A stretch of DNA of 64,000 nucleotides from Chitinophagaceae bacterium (lineage in GTDB: Bacteria > Bacteroidota > Bacteroidia > Chitinophagales > Chitinophagaceae). A model generated the notes under the pieces. That model was not told the origin of the DNA. It was given only the letters and a program-made list of their open reading frames with translations, and searched no databases. Location of the stretch: NCBI GenBank assembly GCA_013140985.1, contig JABFRU010000023.1:1-64000 (forward strand), given 5' to 3'. This document shows, piece by piece, positions 6,708-61,065 of this stretch; the stretch's first letter is position 1, and every line of letters begins with the position of its first letter. Both the position numbers and the translations under genes were made by a program.

Positions 6708-6750
6708 TACAAGGCATTTAAACCAAAAAAATACGAAGAATATTTGATAT

Positions 6751-6850
6751 TGTTTAAGGTTTCATGTCTAAGGTTTAACGTTAGACCAAAATCCAGTATG
6801 AACTTTGCACAACACGACAACATTAAACATTAGACTTTAAACTTTTTAAC
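6751..6850. repeat. Intergenic degenerate short-word inverted repeat
   Basis: The left arm (about 6751-6787) is built from words such as GGTTTAACG and TCTAAGG. The right arm (about 6821-6850) carries the complementary words (CATTAAACATTAGAC, TTTAAAC). The arms flank ~33 bases and could form an imperfect hairpin between the secreted-protein gene and yggS. It is one of about eighteen such loci in the window. Confidence 0.6.
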
Positions 6851-9849: not shown

Positions 9850-12471
9850 ATGGATTATATCGGCGAGCATCGTTTACCGGGTCAATTAGGACACTTCTTT
9901 ATTGTTCTTTCACTTATTGCTTCGCTGGTGGCAACGGTTTCTTATTTCTTATCAGCAAGATCAAAAGATGAGATCGATGCCGGCTATTGGAAAAAGCTGG
10001 CCCGCTATGCTTTCATTACAGAAGCTGTTTCTGTGTTTGCTGTTTTTGGCATCCTCTTTTATATTGTCCATAATCATCTTTTCGAATACAAATATGCATG
10101 GCAGCATAGCAGCCGGTCATTAGAATTCAAATATATACTCGCCTCCTTATGGGAGGGACAGGAAGGAAGTTTCTTACTCTGGAGCATCTGGCATTGTGTA
10201 TTGGGTTTGATACTAATTAAAACAAGTAAGAAATGGGAAGCCCCGGTAATGTCCGTTGTAAGTTTTGTGCAGGTTTTCTTAGCAACTATGATCGCCGGTC
10301 TTTATGTGTTTGGTGAAAAAATAGGTACGAATCCATTTATACTATTGAGAGACTCCGGTGTGCTTGACAATGCTCCTGCACTACATGCAAATATGGATGT
10401 AACCCAACCATTACTTCCTGATTACCTGTCAGCCATCAAAGACGGAAACGGATTGAACAAATTATTACAGAATTACTGGATGGTGATACATCCCCCGGTT
10501 TTATTCATGGGATTTGCTTCAACTATTATTCCGTTTGCATTTACTATAGCCGGTTTATGGAAAAAACAATTTGGCGAATGGACAAAACCCGCATTACCCT
10601 GGGCTCTTTTTTCTGCCGCTGTATTTGGCGTGGGTATTATGATGGGTGCTAAATGGGCTTATGAATCGCTGACCTTTGGGGGTTATTGGGCATGGGACCC
10701 GGTAGAAAATGCATCATTGGTTCCATGGATGGTGATGGTAGCAGGTATTCACACTTTATTGATCTATAAACATAGCGGCCACTCATTAAGAGCTACTCAC
10801 CTCTTCTTCATCATTTCTTTTGCATTGGTATTGTATTCAACCTTTCTTACCCGTAGCGGCATATTAGGTGAAACGTCAGTTCATGCATTTACCGATCTTG
10901 GCATGAATGTTCAGCTTTATCTTTTTCTTTTTGCATTTCTCTGGTTGCCTGCCATCGCAGCCTCTAAAAAATTTAATGGGTTGATGATCACCCTGGGTAC
11001 CTGTATAGGGCTTTTGGTGACCACTTACGTTTGTGACAGAACAGGTTTCGATCTTTTCAACAGGCCGCTTGCACCTATCCTGGCATTAATTACTCTTCTT
11101 ACCGGGATCGGTTTTGCTGTTTATCATATACAAACACAAGTGCCTTCCATTAAAAAAGAAGAAAGCGGCTCGTCAAGAGAGTTCTGGATGTTCATCGGCG
11201 CATTGGTGTTTTTTCTTTCTGCTGTTGTCATCATCGCCCAAACATCAGTACCTGTTTATAACGAGATATTCAACATGAAGAAAGGTGCGCCGGAAGACAG
11301 TGAATATAGTTATAACCGGATACAAGTATTTGTTGCTATCATTATCGGCGTACTTACCGCTGTCACCCAATACCTGAAGTATAAGGGCACATCAACCACT
11401 TATTTTCTGAAAAAAATCTGGGTGCCCACTTTAATAGCCGTTGTTGTGGCTACGCTCATACTGGCATTTGGGAAAGTAAATTATGAGAAAAAATCTGTTG
11501 GTTTTATGGCGGCTATTTGGGTGGCTGTTGCCAGCAGCGTATATGCCATCATTGCCAATGCTGCGTATATATGGCTTGGCTTAAAAGGTAAACTGAAATT
11601 ATCCGGCGGCTCTATTGCTCACCTTGGTTTTGGCATGGTGTTGCTCGGTATTCTTATCACTTCTTCAAAAAAAGAAGTGCTGTCCAATAACAATAGCGGA
11701 ATCTTTGTTCCCCTTGGAGGTAAAGAAGATCCAAAAGAGAACCTGACAATGCTGGAAGGTGTGAAAATGGATATGGGGCGATATTACATAACCTATCTGA
11801 AAGATTCATTTGAAGCCCGCACTGAAAAAACTTTTTTTAATATCCACTTTGAAAGAAAAGATGGTAAGGAAAATTTTTTGCTGCGACCTTATTCTTATAT
11901 AACCGAAGAAGGTCAGCAACCAAATCCTGATGCCCGTCATTACTGGGATCATGATGTGTTCACCTATATCACTTCTACACCCAAGCCTGATGCTATAAAA
12001 GATACTGCCACTTTCAAAACGAATCTATTAAAACCAGGCGATTCTCTTTTTTATTCCAAAGGGTTGATGATCTTCCAGGATGTGGATACCGTTAATGGCT
12101 TACCGGATCATATTGCCGCTATCCTCGGACCAGAAGGAAAACTCTACCGGGCATCTGTAAAAGTTTTTTCTAAGACAGGTTCTATTTTCACCATAACGCC
12201 GAATCTTGCTTTAGCAAAAACAGATATGATAGCAGTGCCCGATACACTTACCCAGGAAGGTCTGATACTACAACTACGAACAGTAAATCCTGATAAGAGT
12301 GTTGAACTGGCAGTGAAAGAAACTGACGCCGTGTTGAAATTCGTTACACTAAAGGCATATAAGTTTCCCTTCATTGGATTGCTTTGGCTGGGAGTCATTG
12401 TTACTGCTCTTGGTATCATCATCAGCATGGTACGTCGCATACAGTTAAACCGGGGAAAAAATAAGGAATAA
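9850..12471 (+). CDS. ccmF: Cytochrome c haem lyase subunit CcmF
   Basis: 873 residues with about 15 membrane helices. The haem-handling WWD domain is at about residues 278-292 (YWAWDPVENASLVPW), with conserved flanking segments VIHPPVLFMGFAS (external His) and YSTFLTRSGILGETSVHAF. A large periplasmic region (about 610-830) precedes the last helix, as in other long CcmF proteins. CcmF transfers haem from CcmE to the CxxCH motifs of apocytochrome c. It directly follows ccmE in one transcript. The stop codon lies inside a short-word repeat array. Confidence 0.94.
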   Translation: MDYIGEHRLPGQLGHFFIVLSLIASLVATVSYFLSARSKDEIDAGYWKKLARYAFITEAVSVFAVFGILFYIVHNHLFEYKYAWQHSSRSLEFKYILASLWEGQEGSFLLWSIWHCVLGLILIKTSKKWEAPVMSVVSFVQVFLATMIAGLYVFGEKIGTNPFILLRDSGVLDNAPALHANMDVTQPLLPDYLSAIKDGNGLNKLLQNYWMVIHPPVLFMGFASTIIPFAFTIAGLWKKQFGEWTKPALPWALFSAAVFGVGIMMGAKWAYESLTFGGYWAWDPVENASLVPWMVMVAGIHTLLIYKHSGHSLRATHLFFIISFALVLYSTFLTRSGILGETSVHAFTDLGMNVQLYLFLFAFLWLPAIAASKKFNGLMITLGTCIGLLVTTYVCDRTGFDLFNRPLAPILALITLLTGIGFAVYHIQTQVPSIKKEESGSSREFWMFIGALVFFLSAVVIIAQTSVPVYNEIFNMKKGAPEDSEYSYNRIQVFVAIIIGVLTAVTQYLKYKGTSTTYFLKKIWVPTLIAVVVATLILAFGKVNYEKKSVGFMAAIWVAVASSVYAIIANAAYIWLGLKGKLKLSGGSIAHLGFGMVLLGILITSSKKEVLSNNNSGIFVPLGGKEDPKENLTMLEGVKMDMGRYYITYLKDSFEARTEKTFFNIHFERKDGKENFLLRPYSYITEEGQQPNPDARHYWDHDVFTYITSTPKPDAIKDTATFKTNLLKPGDSLFYSKGLMIFQDVDTVNGLPDHIAAILGPEGKLYRASVKVFSKTGSIFTITPNLALAKTDMIAVPDTLTQEGLILQLRTVNPDKSVELAVKETDAVLKFVTLKAYKFPFIGLLWLGVIVTALGIIISMVRRIQLNRGKNKE

Positions 12472-12544
12472 AGAATGAAAAAGTCCATTTATAAACGGGC
12501 AAACTTTCTTATTTTTTATTTCTCATTCCTTATTCCTTATTTCC
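12461..12544. repeat. Degenerate short-word inverted repeat after ccmF
   Basis: The left arm (12461-12483) with words AAGGAATA/AAGAATGA starts within the last codons of ccmF; the right arm (about 12507-12544) has TCATTCC, TTATTCC and TTATTTCC. Together they form an imperfect hairpin that may end the ccm transcript. A near-palindrome CCGGGGAATTTCCCGG follows at 12543-12558. Confidence 0.6.
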
Positions 12545-12593
12545 GGGGAATTTCCCGGTCGTAAATTTTGCTTTTTTAAAACAGCTTCTGTTG

Positions 12594-26534: not shown

Positions 26535-26546
26535 TATTTGCTTCTT

Positions 26547-26640
26547 GTTTCAGGTTTCTGGTTTCTGGTTGGGTCTTCAATAGTTGAAGGTTTCTCCCAG
26601 TGGCACGATAACCAGAAACCTGAAACTAGAAACCAGAAAC
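26547..26640. repeat. Solo inverted-repeat element, GTTTC-word type (94 bp)
   Basis: The left arm 26547-26570 and the right arm 26610-26640 share a perfect 17-base inverted match (GTTTCAGGTTTCTGGTT and its complement), with a ~39-base spacer that carries no ORF. The arms are nearly identical to those bracketing the four-helix-bundle gene at 51729-52336, so this looks like an empty or non-autonomous relative of that element. Confidence 0.7.
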
Positions 26641-26661
26641 TAATCTTATAAATTTGCCTGA

Positions 26662-36982: not shown

Positions 36983-37097
36983 TACAGGTTAGTTGAAAAG
37001 TTGGCAAGTTAACAGGGTGACATGGCATCAGCATCATATTTTTAGCGACATTTGCCAACTTATCACCCTGTCAACATACAAACCTGTCAACTTTTCA
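36983..37097. repeat. Degenerate short-word inverted repeat between fbp and aspartate kinase
   Basis: The left arm (36983-37022) has ACAGGTTAGTTG, AAGTTGGCAAG and AACAGGGTGAC; the right arm (37051-37097) has the complements TTTGCCAACTT, CACCCTGTCAAC and ACCTGTCAACTTTTCAA. The arms span ~115 bases and end immediately before the aspartate kinase ATG. Because they leave a frame open, the apparent ORF starts 35 codons too early. Confidence 0.65.
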
Positions 37098-38378
37098 ATG
37101 AAAGTCTTCAAATTCGGCGGCGCTTCTGTCAATAGTGTGGATAGAATAAAGAATGTGGCGGAGATCATGCGCCGGTTTCCCAATGAAAAGATATTGGTTG
37201 CGATATCTGCCATGGGCAAGACCACCAATGCCCTCGAAAAAGTGGTGGATGCTTTTTATGCCGGCAAAAAAGATGAGGCGTTGCAACTGTTTGAACAGGT
37301 AAAACAACAGCATCTTACTACAGCAAAGTATTTGCTTGTTACAAACTATTTGTCCTGCGAAGAACAATTAAAGAATTTTTTCACTGAAGTGGAATGGCTG
37401 TTACACGATAAACCTGTAAGGGATTATGATTATTACTACGACCAGGTAGTTTCTGTCGGTGAATTATTATCAACAGCAATTCTCAGCTCTTACTTGAATG
37501 AAACCGGCATCCATAACAAATGGATAGATGTGCGGGATGTATTCAGAACGGATGATGATTTCAGGGATGCGAATATTGATATGGAGTTTACGAGTTCAAA
37601 AGTTCAAAGTTCAATAGTTCCTTTGCTCGAAGAGACTGATATAGTGCTGACACAAGGTTTTATCGGCGCTACCGATGAAAATGAAAGTACAACCCTCGGA
37701 AGAGAAGGCAGCGATTATTCAGCTGCTGTTTTTGCCAATATGCTTGATGCAGAAAGCCTGGCGATCTGGAAAGATGTAGAAGCTGTGATGAATGCCGATC
37801 CCAAACAATTCCCGGATGCCATTTCTATCGGCGAATTGAATTATAATGAAGTAATCGAAATGGCTTATTACGGCGCACAGGTCATTCATCCCAAAACCAT
37901 CAAGCCATTGCAGAATAAAAATATCCCCTTGTATGTAAAATGTTTTTTAGATCCTTCCTTGCCGGGAACGACCATTCATAATAAACCTGTTCATCATCTT
38001 CCTCCCATTATTGTATTAAAAGAAAAACAGGTGATGCTTGAAATGAGTTCTACCGATTTTTCTTTTATCGGTGAACAACATGTCGGTCATTTGTATAACC
38101 TCTTTGAAAAATTGCATCTAAAACCCAACATGACACAGAACGGCGCTATCAGTTTTGTCTGTGTGCTGAATGACTGGCCTGAAAAGATCGAGAAACTGGC
38201 AGCAGAAGCTTCTGCATTTTTAGATGTACAGGTAATTAAAGACCTTTCTTTGCTTACGATCCGGCATTTTACCAGAGAGATATTTGAAAAACTCACTAAA
38301 AACAAAACCATCCTGCTTCGCCAGCAAACACCCGAAACAATTCAGATGTTGATGACTGAAACCAGGATGGCTCCGTAA
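37098..38378 (+). CDS. Monofunctional aspartate kinase
   Basis: From the ATG at 37098 the product has 426 residues starting MKVFKFGGASV, the canonical aspartokinase N-terminus. The 35 codons open upstream are translated repeat DNA. Kinase-domain signatures include VLTQGFIGATDENESTTLGREGSDYSAAVFA; a degenerate ACT-like C-terminal region (about 310-426) follows. It phosphorylates aspartate, the first step to lysine, threonine and methionine. A short-word tandem repeat is inserted in frame at about residues 166-175 (SSKVQSSI), a stretch that precedes the conserved VLTQGFIG strand. Divergent from fbp. Confidence 0.94.
   Translation: MKVFKFGGASVNSVDRIKNVAEIMRRFPNEKILVAISAMGKTTNALEKVVDAFYAGKKDEALQLFEQVKQQHLTTAKYLLVTNYLSCEEQLKNFFTEVEWLLHDKPVRDYDYYYDQVVSVGELLSTAILSSYLNETGIHNKWIDVRDVFRTDDDFRDANIDMEFTSSKVQSSIVPLLEETDIVLTQGFIGATDENESTTLGREGSDYSAAVFANMLDAESLAIWKDVEAVMNADPKQFPDAISIGELNYNEVIEMAYYGAQVIHPKTIKPLQNKNIPLYVKCFLDPSLPGTTIHNKPVHHLPPIIVLKEKQVMLEMSSTDFSFIGEQHVGHLYNLFEKLHLKPNMTQNGAISFVCVLNDWPEKIEKLAAEASAFLDVQVIKDLSLLTIRHFTREIFEKLTKNKTILLRQQTPETIQMLMTETRMAP
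37592..37620 (+). repeat. In-frame short-word tandem repeat (AGTTCAA type) inside aspartate kinase
   Basis: Four near-copies of the word (A)AGTTCAA/TAGTTC occupy 37592-37620 and encode SSKVQSSIV. The reading frame and flanking kinase motifs are intact. Confidence 0.6.
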
Positions 38379-50415: not shown

Positions 50416-51729
50416 ATGAAACGGCTTTATTTTTTTGTATGGTTGTTCCTTCCTCTACTGGCAAAAGCGCAGAACAAACTATTATCAGTTGAAGAATCTA
50501 TCGCTACTGCCCTGCAGAATAATTATGACATATTGCTGGCAAAGAATGATTCCCTTTCTGCTGCTATTGACTACTCCTATAAGAATGCAGCATTTATTCC
50601 CCGCCTGAATGGAAATATCGGGACGGTTTGGAATAATAACAATACAAAACAAGTTCTGTCCGATGGTACAAAAAGAGAAAGCAATGGTTTGAAGTCGAAT
50701 AATATCAATGCTCAATTGGCGCTCAGCTGGACCTTATTCGACGGATTTAAAATGTTTGCAACAAGAGATAAGCTGGCGGAGTTTGTAAAATTGGGCGAGC
50801 TGGGCATCAAGAACAATATTGTAAATACGGTGGCGGCTGTTATTAACACCTATTATAATATTGTAAGGCAGAAACAACAATTAAAAGCAATAGAAGAACA
50901 AATGTCGCTGAGTGAAGAAAGGGTAAAACTTTCGCAATACAGACTGGATATTGGCGTGGGCACCAAACCGGATGTATTGCAGGCGAAAGTTGATCTGAAT
51001 GCACAAAAAGCAGCCCGTTTGCAACAACAGGCATTGATCGAACAACTCAGGGAAGAATTGAACCAGGTAATGAATATCCGTCCTACTGCTCCTTATGATG
51101 TCAGTGATTCCATTCCTATCAACACCGGCATTGTATTGGGTGATATTCAAAATAGCATTGAAGGCAATAATCCTTTATTGCTGATCGCAAAAAAGAATAT
51201 TGCCATTGCCGGGTTTACGTTGAAAGAAAGAAAAGCTGAACGTTTTCCAACGGTCTCCTTTAATTCGGCATATAATTTTAACCGGACCGAAAATCAAACG
51301 GTCATCAATTCTTTTTCTACCCTTTTCAATCGCAATAAAGGTTTTAACTATGGCCTCACGGCCACAATTCCTATCCTGAATAATTTTAATACCCGAAGAT
51401 TAATTAAGCAGGCAGAACTCGATATCAAATACCAGCAGCTCGTTTATGATAATCAAAAATCATTGATCGATCTTGCTGTCATCAATGCTTACAGGGACTA
51501 TATACAACAAAAAAAAGCACTGGACCTTGAAGAAGAGAATATATTACTGGCTAAAGAAAATGTGGATATCATCTTCCAGGTATATAAATTAGGAGCTACC
51601 ACTTATATCCAGCTCCGTGAAGCGCAGAAGAGTTTGGAAGATGGTTATAACCGGCTGATCACAGCGAGGTATAATACGAAGCTGGCCGAAACGGAATTGC
51701 TAAGATTGAAGGGAGACCTGGTGAGATAG
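50416..51729 (+). CDS. TolC-family outer-membrane efflux channel
   Basis: 437 residues with a signal peptide (about 1-19, ending LLAKAQ). Two similar outer-membrane-efflux repeats (about 25-215 and 230-430) have long amphipathic helices, as in TolC. The middle contains SLSEERVKLSQYRLDIGVGTKPDVLQAKVDLN and the end VYKLGATTYIQLREAQKSLEDGYNRLITARYN, the usual TolC helix patterns (each longer than shown). It forms the exit duct for the RND pump. The gap after the RND gene is 12 bases. The stop codon is followed directly by the GTTTC-type inverted repeat. Confidence 0.93.
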   Translation: MKRLYFFVWLFLPLLAKAQNKLLSVEESIATALQNNYDILLAKNDSLSAAIDYSYKNAAFIPRLNGNIGTVWNNNNTKQVLSDGTKRESNGLKSNNINAQLALSWTLFDGFKMFATRDKLAEFVKLGELGIKNNIVNTVAAVINTYYNIVRQKQQLKAIEEQMSLSEERVKLSQYRLDIGVGTKPDVLQAKVDLNAQKAARLQQQALIEQLREELNQVMNIRPTAPYDVSDSIPINTGIVLGDIQNSIEGNNPLLLIAKKNIAIAGFTLKERKAERFPTVSFNSAYNFNRTENQTVINSFSTLFNRNKGFNYGLTATIPILNNFNTRRLIKQAELDIKYQQLVYDNQKSLIDLAVINAYRDYIQQKKALDLEEENILLAKENVDIIFQVYKLGATTYIQLREAQKSLEDGYNRLITARYNTKLAETELLRLKGDLVR

Positions 51730-51760
51730 TTTCTAGTTTCTGGTTTCAGGTTTCTGGTTC
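51729..51760. repeat. Left terminal inverted repeat of the four-helix-bundle cassette
   Basis: The GTTTC-word arm (GTTTCTAGTTTCTGGTTTC and onward) begins at the last base of the TolC stop codon. Its positions 51735-51759 are a perfect 25-base inverse of 52306-52330. The same words form the solo element at 26547-26640. Confidence 0.8.
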
Positions 51761-51881
51761 TTTCGGATCGAAATTTTCCTAAAAGATCTAAATCTCTTTT
51801 GAGCCAGAATTTTCACATTATTACTGTTTATTTTCCCCTTAATAGAAGTGTTCGTCTCGTTAAGTTGCTAAAAAATTATTA

Positions 51882-52280
51882 ATGGCAACAATAAAACGGT
51901 TTGAAGACCTGGAGATATGGCAAATAGCAAGACAACTTTACAATAAAATGTCAGTTATTGCTGTCCGGTTAAGAGCAAAAAGAGAATATCGTTTTGCTGA
52001 ACAGATCAAATCCGCCGCAGGATCTATCATGGATAATATTGCTGAAGGATTTGAAAGAGATAGCCGACTGGAATTCGTTAACTCATTAAGTATTTCGAAA
52101 GGAGAATGTGGCGAGAACAAATCACAGCTTTACAGACTTTTTGATGACCACTATATTTCCGAAAGTGAATTCAATGAAGTTTTTACTATTTCTGATAAGC
52201 TTTCAGGAAAAATTGCGAATTTTATCCGTTATTTGAATAGTTCAGTAACCAGGGGCTTGAAATTTAAAGACAGGAAGTGA
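51882..52280 (+). CDS. Four-helix-bundle protein (S23/23S-rRNA-IVP family)
   Basis: 132 residues, all helical. Conserved features of the family: FEDLEIWQIARQLYNKM at the start, FAEQIKSAAGSIMDNIAEGFER in the middle and NSLSISKGECGENKSQLYRL (key pattern A-x-G-E-x-x-x-Q/L) in the third helix. Homologues are encoded in intervening sequences of 23S rRNA genes in some bacteria and as standalone genes in many Bacteroidota; the bundle is related to the Avd accessory protein of diversity-generating retroelements. Biological role is unknown. It is the only gene inside a 608-base segment bounded by 25-bp perfect inverted repeats. Confidence 0.88.
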   Translation: MATIKRFEDLEIWQIARQLYNKMSVIAVRLRAKREYRFAEQIKSAAGSIMDNIAEGFERDSRLEFVNSLSISKGECGENKSQLYRLFDDHYISESEFNEVFTISDKLSGKIANFIRYLNSSVTRGLKFKDRK

Positions 52281-52302
52281 AAGCTGGAACCTCCGCATAA
52301 CA

Positions 52303-52336
52303 CGAAACCAGAAACCTGAAACCAGAAACTCGAAAC
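52303..52336. repeat. Right terminal inverted repeat of the four-helix-bundle cassette
   Basis: GAAACCAGAAACCTGAAACC-type arm; positions 52306-52330 are the perfect 25-base inverse of 51735-51759. It ends 17 bases before the TTG start of purE, so it occupies the position where the purE promoter and leader would be expected. Confidence 0.8.
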
Positions 52337-52353
52337 AATAAATCATAAACCAA

Positions 52354-56093: not shown

Positions 56094-57689
56094 TTACGAT
56101 TCTTTTATCGTTACAAATTCCTGCTCTAATCCCAATGAGTGCTGGTATAATTCTTTAATGAAATCCTTTCCCCATTTTGCATAGTAATAAGAAAGGTTCT
56201 CATGTCTTTCCTGTAACCCATTGCCGGGAAATAAATGTTCTTTGATTGTATGTATCTGTCGCTGCTGGTCCGCAAACTTTCTTTTTTCAGCCCGCAACAT
56301 TTTCTTTTCTAATTCCTGTAAACGATAAACAGTTTGCTGCTTCAATGCCATGACATGCTTTTCCAATGTAGTATCAACAGCAGCAGCCTGCTTTTTGAAT
56401 GTATCATACAATTGTTCCAGTTCGGTCAGCGAGCCGTTCAGTTTTGTCTCGTTCTTACTTTCTCTGGTCACCAGTTTATTCAGCAATTCCTGTTCAGGCA
56501 AAAAGAAATCTTCAATGGTAAAACCAAGATGAGCCATTTTTTCCTGCCATTTTTTTTCAACGATCAAAAAAGAATTGCGAAGCACCAAGACAGGAAAAGG
56601 GATAGTATAATGATCGAAAAGATCTTTTAATTGTAACCAGTAAGCCGTCTCTCCTGCCCCCCCGATAAATGCAATGTTGGGCAGGATAGTTTCCTGGTAA
56701 AGCCCTCTCAGGATCACATTCGGACTGAAACGTTCGGGATGATCGTTCAATTCTTTTAATAGATCATTCTCAGAAAACGTCAATGGTGAATTGTGAATGG
56801 TGAATTTATCATTCTTTTTTTCAATTCGTTCTCTGAGGTCATCTTTTAAATAGAATAGATTGATCTCCCTTGGATTCGCTTGTGACTTGTACCCTGCACT
56901 TCCCAATCTATCTACTGTTTTCTCAACAATACCTGAAGCTGTTTGATTCAGCAGATCATCTTTAAAAAGATCAACCATTTGCTTTTTCAATGCCGTATTA
57001 TCCGGAAGCAATACAACAAGGCCGTATTCAGCAAAAAGTTTGTTGACAAAATAAAAAGTTGCATCCTGTATTGTTACCCCTTCCTTGTAGAATCCTTTCA
57101 GCAATGAAACGATCTCATTCCCATTTGGTAAAACTGATAACTGTCCCTCTATCCTGTCAACCAGTTTTAGCAACCCTTTGTCGATCTTCATCCGGCCAAC
57201 AGCGCCGGTTTGTTTTGTTTCCCAGGCAAGTTTTTCTCCGCCAAGATTGATATGATTCAATTCAGCCAAATCTGCATCTTCTGAACCGATATAAAAGACA
57301 GGAATAAAATTTTGTTTGGGTAAAGAAGTTTTTAAATGATCCACCAGTTTAATAGCATGAACGATCTTGTAAATAAAATACAGTGGCCCTGTAAAAAGGT
57401 TGTTCTGGTGAGCTGTAGTTATTGTAAATGTATCGGCCGAAAGAAGCGATTCAATACTCTTTTTTACATTATCGGAGGTTTCTACTCCCTCATATTGTTT
57501 TTTCAATTCTGCTACCAGTGTTTTCCGGTCGGTAGCAAATTGCTTTCTTGCTTCGATCGCTTTTTGAATCCCCTGTAATGTGGGAGGATGAGTAAAGAAT
57601 GGTTTCAAGGCTGCCGCCTGGTCAATATAATCCAATGCAATACTGGAAAAGGTTCCGGTCTGTCGGTAAGGCAAGCGGGCAGCATTCAT
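56094..57689 (-). CDS. bshC: Bacillithiol biosynthesis cysteine-adding enzyme BshC
   Basis: 531 residues. The N-terminal LPYRQTGTFSSIALDYI, TITTAHQNNLFTGPLYFIYKIVHAI, FIPVFYIGSEDADLAELNHINLGG and ANPREINLFYLKDDLRERIE are BshC signatures (each longer in the protein). It joins cysteine to GlcN-malate in the last step of bacillithiol synthesis. An array of GGTGAAT-type words at 56779-56806 is inserted in frame near residues 296-305 (FTIHNSPLT) after the conserved DLRERIE segment. Cytoplasmic. The bshB1 gene is 43 kb away. Confidence 0.93.
   Translation of the reverse strand: MNAARLPYRQTGTFSSIALDYIDQAAALKPFFTHPPTLQGIQKAIEARKQFATDRKTLVAELKKQYEGVETSDNVKKSIESLLSADTFTITTAHQNNLFTGPLYFIYKIVHAIKLVDHLKTSLPKQNFIPVFYIGSEDADLAELNHINLGGEKLAWETKQTGAVGRMKIDKGLLKLVDRIEGQLSVLPNGNEIVSLLKGFYKEGVTIQDATFYFVNKLFAEYGLVVLLPDNTALKKQMVDLFKDDLLNQTASGIVEKTVDRLGSAGYKSQANPREINLFYLKDDLRERIEKKNDKFTIHNSPLTFSENDLLKELNDHPERFSPNVILRGLYQETILPNIAFIGGAGETAYWLQLKDLFDHYTIPFPVLVLRNSFLIVEKKWQEKMAHLGFTIEDFFLPEQELLNKLVTRESKNETKLNGSLTELEQLYDTFKKQAAAVDTTLEKHVMALKQQTVYRLQELEKKMLRAEKRKFADQQRQIHTIKEHLFPGNGLQERHENLSYYYAKWGKDFIKELYQHSLGLEQEFVTIKES
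56779..56806 (-). repeat. In-frame short-word repeat (GGTGAAT type) inside bshC
   Basis: GTCAATGGTGAATTGTGAAT and GGTGAAT on the plus strand (56779-56806) match the array at 47218-47238 and its complement at 47282-47316. On the coding strand it encodes FTIHNSPLT; the frame remains open on both sides. Confidence 0.7.
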
Positions 57690-60051: not shown

Positions 60052-61065
60052 TCATACAACTGAAAATCCATACGCATACGGATCATCCTCCTTATCTATC
60101 CAGATCGTATTATATCCATAAATTTTTGCCCAGCCTTCCACACCGGGACGTATCGCAGGCTTGCCAGCCAGTGTTAACTCTTCCTCTATCCTGCCAATGA
60201 ATTTACTCCCGATAATACTTTCATGAATGAACTCATCGCCTTTCTTCAATTTCCCCTTCGCATACCATTGCGCCATTCTTGCTGATGTACCAGTGCCGCA
60301 GGGCGAACGGTCAATCGCTTTTTCGCCATAAAAAACTGCATTCCTTGCTGTAGAAGTTTTATCAAGCACGGCTCCTGTCCATAAAATATGCGAACAACCT
60401 TTTATTGTCGCATCTTCAGGATGAACAAATTCATACTTCGCATTAATATTCTTTCTCAATTCTCTTGCCCATGCAATCAATTTATCAGCTGAATAATTTT
60501 CAAGTCCTTTAAAATTTTTCTGCACATCAACAATGGCATAAAAATTTCCGCCATACGCCACATCAACAACCAGTTCGCCCAAGTCAGGACAATCAATAGC
60601 TAATTCAGTTGAATCTAAATACGCCGGCACATTGGTTAGTTTGACATTTTTGATTTTGGGTTTTTGATTTTTGATTTCGGTTTCATACACTACCATAACT
60701 AACCCGGCCGGGGTTTCCATTCTCACATGGCCTTCCCTTTTTGGCTTGACCAACCCTTCCTCAAGAGCGATAGTAATTGTCCCAATAGTTCCATGACCAC
60801 ACATGGGCAGGCAGCCACTGGTTTCAATAAATAAAACAGAGACATCATTGGCCGGGTCATGCGGCGGATAGAGAATACTTCCGCTCATCATGTCATGCCC
60901 TCTTGGCTCGAACATCAGTCCTGTTCTTATCCAGTCATATTCTTTTAGAAAATGCTGACGCTTCTCGCTCATGTTACGGCCATGCAATTCCGGCCCACCC
61001 TTTTTTACCAATCTTACCGGGTTGCCGCAAGTATGAGCGTCTATGCATTCAAAGATGTACTTCAT
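60052..61065 (-). CDS. 4-hydroxyproline 2-epimerase (proline racemase family)
   Basis: 337 residues from the ATG at 61065 (MKYIFECIDAHTCGNPVRLV). The open frame begins 23 codons earlier, but those codons (NHTENTEFTEN) are translated repeat DNA. The two catalytic cysteines of the family are C89 in MCGHGTIG and C256 in RSPCGTGTSA, so epimerase rather than dehydratase activity is expected. It converts trans-4-hydroxy-L-proline to cis-4-hydroxy-D-proline. A repeat (TTTTTGATTTTGG type) is inserted in frame near residues 131-140 (IKNQKPKIKN). It forms a probable pathway with the dehydrogenase downstream. Confidence 0.9.
   Translation of the reverse strand: MKYIFECIDAHTCGNPVRLVKKGGPELHGRNMSEKRQHFLKEYDWIRTGLMFEPRGHDMMSGSILYPPHDPANDVSVLFIETSGCLPMCGHGTIGTITIALEEGLVKPKREGHVRMETPAGLVMVVYETEIKNQKPKIKNVKLTNVPAYLDSTELAIDCPDLGELVVDVAYGGNFYAIVDVQKNFKGLENYSADKLIAWARELRKNINAKYEFVHPEDATIKGCSHILWTGAVLDKTSTARNAVFYGEKAIDRSPCGTGTSARMAQWYAKGKLKKGDEFIHESIIGSKFIGRIEEELTLAGKPAIRPGVEGWAKIYGYNTIWIDKEDDPYAYGFSVV
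60646..60684 (-). repeat. In-frame short-word repeat (TTTTTGATTT type) inside the epimerase gene
   Basis: TTTTTGATTTTGGG, TTTTTGATT and TTTGATTTC on the plus strand (60646-60684) encode, on the coding strand, a Lys/Asn-rich stretch (IKNQKPKIKN). The reading frame and both catalytic motifs remain intact. Confidence 0.6.

Follow-up and report, generated by a model that had tools for sequence, protein, structure and literature searches.

Why should a gene for a four-helix-bundle protein lie between perfect inverted repeats, in the gap that separates two other protein genes? The question is raised by the first 64,000 nucleotides (the window) of contig JABFRU010000023.1 from a Chitinophagaceae bacterium (GenBank assembly GCA_013140985.1), in which a gene of the S23/IVP family is placed between a tolC-like gene and purE. 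An earlier note had regarded this segment as a candidate minimal mobile cassette. The answer that we favour, with a probability of about 0.68, is that it is a two-component mobile element of approximately 0.5 kb, which consists of the IVP gene and convergent arrays of 7-nt units (heptads) as ends, and which works like the systems formed by hairpin-forming doublets of repetitive extragenic palindromes (REPs) and REP-associated tyrosine transposases (REPIN/RAYT), with a protein that is not a transposase.

The two repeats (51735-51759 and 52306-52330, converted from the coordinates of locus L016) are perfect inverse copies of each other over 25 bp, as the note had claimed, and the arms lengthen to 51726-51759 and 52306-52339 (34 nt, 94%) when two mismatches are allowed. 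The note had missed that each arm is a tandem array of 7-nt GTTTCNN units, with four full units on the left and five cores on the right. The final base of the TolC stop (51727-51729) is also the first base of the left array, and the right array ends at 52336, ahead of purE (TTG start, 52354), so that the extent given for the segment also holds. The IVP gene is the sole open reading frame of at least 60 aa on its strand between the arms, as had been stated, with 90.8 bits for PF05635 (cut-off 33.8) and 81.3 bits for TIGR02436 (cut-off 24). A profile search of the element returned PF05635 alone and thus nothing resembling a transposase between the ends. Reading of the open reading frames likewise showed neither a reverse transcriptase nor template/variable repeats in the cassette, the neighbouring frames being tolC-like and purE and no search aimed at reverse transcriptases having been made, and no target-site duplication was evident by reading the flanks, where the arrays blur the boundary. 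The pattern GTTTCNNGTTTCNNGTTTC with up to two mismatches occurs 14 times in the window, compared to 0.18 expected from shuffles, and its exact form 21 times in the genome, compared to none for the reversed control pattern. The unit recurs outside this locus, in a gene-less inverted GTTTCNN pair at 26536-26644, and the units vary between IVP genes. The perfect 25-bp match was considered as a special feature and rejected, because gene-less pairs agree in the GTTTC core and differ in the two spacer bases (by eye); therefore, a perfect match of the arms is not required.

The architecture is not peculiar to this locus. In the genome (G000; 3.86 Mb, 83 contigs) PF05635 has 16 matches, 15 of them above the curated cut-off, and inspection by eye shows convergent arrays of units of about 7-8 nt around every one of the 16. 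The unit varies by gene: GTTTCNN in the window, and GTTTGAG, GTTTAAAG, GTGAATG (two genes), CAATTGA, AGTGGCA, GCTGTTA, ATTTGGA, AATGTGG and others elsewhere. This was put to a shuffle test, in which the inverted match between the 350 nt upstream and the 350 nt downstream of a family match (slightly wider flanks in Gammaproteobacteria) had to beat all 60 dinucleotide shuffles of the same locus; a null of mismatched pairs was rejected, because loci share units and inflate it (6 of 29 passed). The test was passed by 15 of the 16 loci of the genome (L010 fails although its arrays are visible), 43 of 67 usable loci of relatives, 27 of 30 from named genomes, 8 of 9 from plasmids, 20 of 28 from Gammaproteobacteria, 23 of 26 from order-level relatives of the window protein and 3 of 5 further loci of the congener G021, in total 139 of 181. 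Ordinary genes pass far more rarely, namely 1 of 48 in the window and 12 of 265 in stretches of G000 and G021 (13/313), and matches in direct orientation pass in 0, 5, 4 and 0 cases in the genome itself, relatives, named genomes and plasmids, respectively. The samples comprised 9 of 13 plasmid records, 11 of 13 IVP matches of G021, 30 loci from 39 gammaproteobacterial matches and, for the relatives, the loci returned plus 40 fetched places; an IVP match is present in 28 of the 38 relatives. Some loci were too short for the test (one from IVP relatives, one from named genomes, three from relatives' loci of the GxxExxY family discussed below). L339, L362 and the gammaproteobacterial L382 and L386 were also dropped, L084 (a fragment beside L083) was left unscored, L353 was omitted as a repeat of L118, and L063, L180, L164, L181 and L174 were omitted from an earlier arm scoring due to short flanks.

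The period of the arms is clear. Identity within IVP arms is 0.47 at lag 7 and 0.42 at lag 14, compared to 0.28-0.34 at other lags; 7 or 14 is the best lag in 35 of 50 IVP loci above an earlier null (8 in another 9), and in 19 of 20 gammaproteobacterial loci. Among 89 elements chosen for clear heptads four to five is the commonest number of units per arm (on the left in 59 elements, on the right in 49), the inward-read strand is poor in C (C 8.7%, G 32.7%), and the median length is 491 nt. In addition, protein and repeat are correlated: when elements from different sites are compared in pairs, protein identity and arm similarity have a Spearman coefficient of 0.204, which none of 2000 permutations reached (50 of 83 and 20 of 34 loci, those above the null, minus 8 and 6 same-site-like pairs). 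Arms are common to both elements (score of at least 16) in 56% of the 9 pairs with 60-80% protein identity, and in 2-4% of the pairs below 45% identity. The inheritance of whole elements would produce the correlation as well; in both cases the arms travel with the gene. L119 and L133 have a common outer flank and 79% identical proteins with different arms, each arm matching its own partner; therefore, both arms of one element can change together.

The evidence that reaches beyond the cassettes comes from arrays without a gene. A total of 82 lag-7 arrays was found in 458.6 kb of the genome (11.9%), three of them near an IVP gene, and 65 in 400 kb of G021, four of them near an IVP gene; counts at lags 6 and 9, multiples of three, may reflect codons. 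The arrays away from IVP genes were matched to the arms of the 16 IVP elements of G000 and 11 of G021. At a score of at least 16 the ratio of best matches to units of G000 and of G021 is 34:1 for the arrays of G000 and 8:17 for those of G021, so that each set favours its own genome (Fisher p=4e-8, somewhat flattering because the arrays of a pair are not independent). At a score of 13 the ratios are 54:10 and 21:21 (p=1.7e-4), and at 20 they are 21:0 and 4:7. The comparison rests on two genomes, a small sample. An inverted partner is present within 140 nt of 20 of the 34 strongly matching arrays of G000 and 12 of the 18 of G021, and all nine close pairs that were assigned to one IVP are convergent, as in the cassettes. 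The arrays found in the window are listed in Table 1. Of its five pairs three have a predicted RNA fold with z below -5 and two above -2, and the right arm of the pair that resembles two IVPs of the genome scores slightly higher with an IVP of G021 (14.0) than with its own (13.0). The paired counterpart of the GTTTCNN mini-element, which lies upstream of a folC-like gene, was absent by eye from all 20 same-genus relatives with a match at this site; G002 has a short GTTTCAGGTTTACC stretch there, and the upstream context differs in at least G019.

Table 1. IVP gene and heptad arrays of the window
Feature	Positions	Strand	Remarks
Left (5') heptad array	51729-51759	+	GTTTCTA GTTTCTG GTTTCAG GTTTCTG GTT; matching arm 51726-51759
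IVP/S23-family four-helix-bundle gene, 132 aa	51882-52280	+	PF05635, TIGR02436; near-invariant Q41, S48, E55, E78
Right (3') heptad array, inverted	52304-52336	-	GAAAC CA GAAAC CT GAAAC CA GAAAC TC GAAAC
Gene-less mini-element, same GTTTCNN unit as window IVP	26536-26644		Convergent arms, 39-nt loop
Heptad pair resembling units of own IVPs L015 and L014	47198-47313		RNA z -1.2, weak hairpin
Inverted pair, AAGTTGGC/AAGTTAAC-type unit	36993-37098		40-nt loop; RNA z -6.9
Inverted heptad pair, GGAATAA-type unit	12456-12545		RNA z -5.1; 36-nt loop; without a strong match among own IVP units
Inverted heptad pair, GTTTAAG-type unit	6750-6846		RNA z -1.7
Single heptad array GTTTGAA	6942-6977	+	Best match own IVP L018, score 22.5
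Single heptad array GTGAATG/GTCAATG	56775-56808	+	Best match own IVP L011, score 23.0
Single heptad array ATTTTTG/ATTTTGG	60646-60684	+	Best match own IVP L023, score 26.0

Comparison of the tolC-purE junction in relatives bears on mobility. The earlier note had suggested looking for the empty site, and among the 18 relatives of the same genus that have purE the junction is by eye empty of both gene and array pair in 12. G009 carries another IVP element, with arms of the GTTTGTA type; G003, G018 and G014, the latter at a contig edge, have other heptad arrays without an IVP gene; G019 has a different gene upstream of purE; and the junction of G004 was not read. The refutation that the note had named, orthologous genes without repeats at this place in every relative, therefore does not apply, and the proposal of a mobile cassette is strengthened by the comparison, but movement itself was not observed. 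Two members of other genera of the family (G209 and G271) have a 61-63% identical IVP at tolC-purE, and therefore the insertion may be old or the site may have been hit repeatedly. The IVP of G009 matches that of the window in 41 of 78 aligned residues, in spite of 89% identity of PurE. Because this IVP is so distant while those of other genera are 61-63% identical, repeated arrival seems likelier than simple descent. Of 28 examined relatives of the window IVP (42-63% identity) 26 lie in stretches without a PurE motif, bounded by heptad-like arrays, many of which, not all, are of the type GTTTNNN. In L335 and L336 the right array is in frame and is read as the start of PurE.

Architecture, period, polarity, the correlation of unit and protein, the match of dispersed arrays to resident IVP genes, and presence or absence between related genomes are observed; from these we infer mobility and a direct binding of the arrays by the IVP. 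Each IVP would recognise its own heptad array, and the system would spread as full cassettes and as short gene-less array pairs (arms and a short loop) that are copied in trans. The AlphaFold2 model of the window IVP has four helices (mean pLDDT 91.9), and Foldseek ranks the S23 crystals 2rld and 2gsc first, the latter being the IVP XCC0516 of X. campestris. Both have five chains, which fits a pentamer, and together with the structurally similar protein Avd they suggest that the IVP might assemble into a five-membered ring. Each subunit could then engage one 7-nt unit on the C-poor strand of the single-stranded array, either RNA or lagging-strand DNA, the two arms would pair to form a hairpin, and it would be this nucleoprotein that is copied, or inserted beside the ends of genes. 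Candidates for the cutting and joining enzyme are the IVP itself, host replication or repair, and a reverse transcriptase. Four residues are near-invariant in 144 aligned IVP segments, namely Q41 (142), S48 (141), E55 (141) and E78 (144).

The last candidate leads to a variant of this step that does not exclude the favoured reading, a retro-type movement, in which the Avd-like IVP would escort the paired-arm RNA to a reverse transcriptase encoded elsewhere, followed by insertion of the cDNA. After the S23 crystals Foldseek lists Avd (4dwl; TM score by query length 0.68-0.71, 10-11% identity) and chains of the ribonucleoprotein of diversity-generating retroelements (8ub7/8ub8/8ube), the arms of the full window element pair in its folded transcript (z -6.8, 20 shuffles), and the excision of 23S rRNA intervening sequences takes place in the RNA (PMC4990558). 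No reverse transcriptase, however, was seen among the open reading frames of the window cassette, and we consider this route unlikely.

Could the IVP instead be a resident RNA- or DNA-binding regulator, with autoregulatory arrays at its own gene, dispersed arrays as operators or mRNA hairpins of its regulon, and local duplication instead of movement? The match between dispersed arrays and resident IVP genes would agree with this, many arrays adjoin stop and start codons, the hairpins of three of the five window pairs are strong, and translational regulation has been proposed for the heptamer TAACTGA (PMC4679880). A regulator does not readily explain why the gene has convergent arrays on either side and why relatives have or lack the unit as a whole, why one genome has 16 matches with differing units, and why relatives carry different elements at one junction; we regard it as improbable. 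Alternatively, IVP genes could be passengers at hot spots, inserted at or between heptad pairs that owe their spread to slippage, to recombination or to a different transposase. This would agree with the different arrays at the same intergenic sites of different genomes and with the excess of arrays over IVP genes. Between the two options of the note, a passenger and a self-mobilising unit, the evidence is not decisive, but the match of dispersed arrays to resident genes speaks against a mere passenger, and the hot-spot reading is very improbable, because the unit sequence tracks the protein and dispersed arrays match the resident IVP set, ordinary genes are seldom so flanked, and the two best Y1 transposase matches of the genome sit among GTCCC/GGGAC palindromes, not heptads.

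Orphan heptamers have been described in separate lineages without known function or partner, TAACTGA (PMC4679880) as well as GGGAATC and GGGGAYT (PMC4692102), and they resemble the arrays described here in the 7-nt period, the largely intergenic location and the proximity to start and stop codons. GGGAATC-type repeats prefer four units, and X. campestris has 70 convergent pairs (PMC4692102); for TAACTGA a hypothetical binding protein has been raised as a possible mobile element (PMC4679880). The accessible text of both articles names no four-helix-bundle partner. We found exact TAACTGA arrays in inverted orientation on both sides of the IVP gene of a Nostocales metagenome-assembled genome (MAG) (L226), and on one side in L274 and L295, with the same polarity as in L226. 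At loci from Chloroflexi, Dehalococcoidia and Microcystis (L318, L313 and L319) the IVP genes are flanked by the complement TCAGTTA or by sequences close to it, and GGGAATC-type arrays flank the IVP gene of a gammaproteobacterium (L378), just under the shuffle threshold (26.5 versus 27.0); L378 is the closest evidence on whether the gene of XCC0516 might stand between GGGAATC arrays. Of 22 named genomes selected for TAACTGA arrays 20 have an IVP match.

Taken together, it is conceivable, and we propose it tentatively as somewhat short of an even chance, that four-helix-bundle IVPs are the mobilisers of transposase-free mobile DNA in several phyla; that cyanobacterial orphan heptamers, TAACTGA and the Xanthomonas-type GGGAATC arrays are cassette ends and their non-autonomous progeny; that rRNA genes received copies of it, namely the 23S intervening sequences; and that GxxExxY PDDEXK genes with arrays of about 9 nt form a parallel class. 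PF05635/TIGR02436 is a widespread orphan family, and linking it with the orphan heptamers gives each a partner. The 23S rRNA gene might then be seen as one of several places in which a broader element inserts, and the hypothesis of Ralph and McClelland (1993; cited in PMC4990558) that their open reading frame is a component of mobility becomes directly testable. If a non-transposase protein indeed spreads such units, this would be a novel mode of DNA movement. In the literature searched, which covered few subscription papers or preprints, we found no paper that connects PF05635 genes with dispersed heptamer arrays; the S23 intervening sequence is already known, and neither its genome-wide form nor a link with orphan heptamers was met in that literature.

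Several observations weigh against these proposals. Target-site duplications, excision products and transposition intermediates were not observed, and reads were not searched for them. At a score of 16, 45 of 79 dispersed arrays of G000 and 43 of 61 of G021 fall below the threshold with the units of their own genome, the inverted match does not beat the shuffles at 42 of the 181 usable IVP loci, and three loci of named genomes at which it does (L304, L315 and L326) have matches that are not heptad-like. Ten of the 38 relatives lack an IVP match, and the occupancy of tolC-purE in two other genera would also allow an old insertion followed by losses. Regarding the heptamers, two of the 22 genomes selected for TAACTGA arrays (a Parabeggiatoa MAG and M. 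viridis) have no IVP match, the arrays of Beggiatoaceae mostly precede start codons as direct sets, a single set being inverted (PMC4679880), and GGGAATC regions are genomically stable, generally away from mobile elements, with few pairs in Nostoc (PMC4692102). An IVP gene was present in 3 of the 111 TAACTGA-array loci scanned (one among the first 80); the 108 loci without a gene are expected if arrays far outnumber cassettes, and they are no proof of such an excess.

Among the closest known systems is the 23S intervening sequence. That of Coxiella has an S23p open reading frame, a length of approximately 0.43 kb, terminal inverted repeats that form a 28-bp stem, and, ahead of the open reading frame, tandem GACAGAT heptamers (two to three, with a further degenerate copy), their number depending on the strain (PMC4990558). 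The window element likewise combines an S23/IVP frame, pairable terminal inverted repeats and heptamers. In contrast, it lies between protein genes (tolC-like and purE) and not in a helix of 23S rRNA, and its genome has 16 PF05635 matches with differing units and dispersed gene-less pairs of matching units; due to its location outside 23S rRNA it was not classed as such a sequence. With REPIN/RAYT systems it shares dispersed, inverted extragenic doublets with predicted hairpins that are tied to a specific gene of the genome (PMC3116915), and the doublet type matches the resident gene. However, its arms are tandem heptads and not single palindromic REPs, and its partner is a four-helix bundle instead of a Y1 tyrosine transposase, the absence of which places it outside that class. 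It differs from insertion sequences and transposons by the lack of a transposase between its ends, and from Avd, the fold of which the IVP has according to Foldseek, in that neither a reverse transcriptase nor template/variable repeats were seen in the cassette by reading its open reading frames. A RAYT/IS200 enzyme was also considered as mobiliser and rejected, since no heptad arrays were seen by eye in 360 nt on each side of five Y1 matches of the genome. Two Y1 (RAYT-like) genes, L441 and L442, have GTCCCGTAGGGAC-type palindromes around them, which apparently belong to a REP system of their own.

Some further loci deserve mention. The purE gene of the window apparently starts with TTG, and close relatives, e.g., G008, have ATG at the matching place; the arrival of the element may have altered the start codon. 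On a Picosynechococcus plasmid (L190) a type III-B CRISPR operon contains an IVP cassette, with cas10 on one side and a cmr3-family gene on the other, and this may explain why a figure legend about CRISPR associations mentions the 23S rRNA IVP (PMC10910872). On a Nostoc edaphicum plasmid (L186) a cassette with AGTAGGG arrays lies in opposite orientation between two genes for ribonucleotide reductase subunits.

GxxExxY/PDDEXK_3 (PF13366) genes of the genome (L075-L083) and of relatives (L155-L183) are also found within inverted arrays, with units of about 9 nt, e.g., CACAAAGAC and ACACGGAT. Their inverted match beats 60 shuffles at 8 of 9 loci of the genome and 14 of 26 usable loci of relatives, and arm similarity tracks protein identity. 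The period is weak (0.30 at lag 9 and 0.29 at lag 10, compared to 0.25-0.28 at other lags). One gene junction harbours an IVP cassette in G231 (L357) and a GxxExxY cassette in G000 (L079), and therefore both kinds of cassette may use the same tolerant sites.

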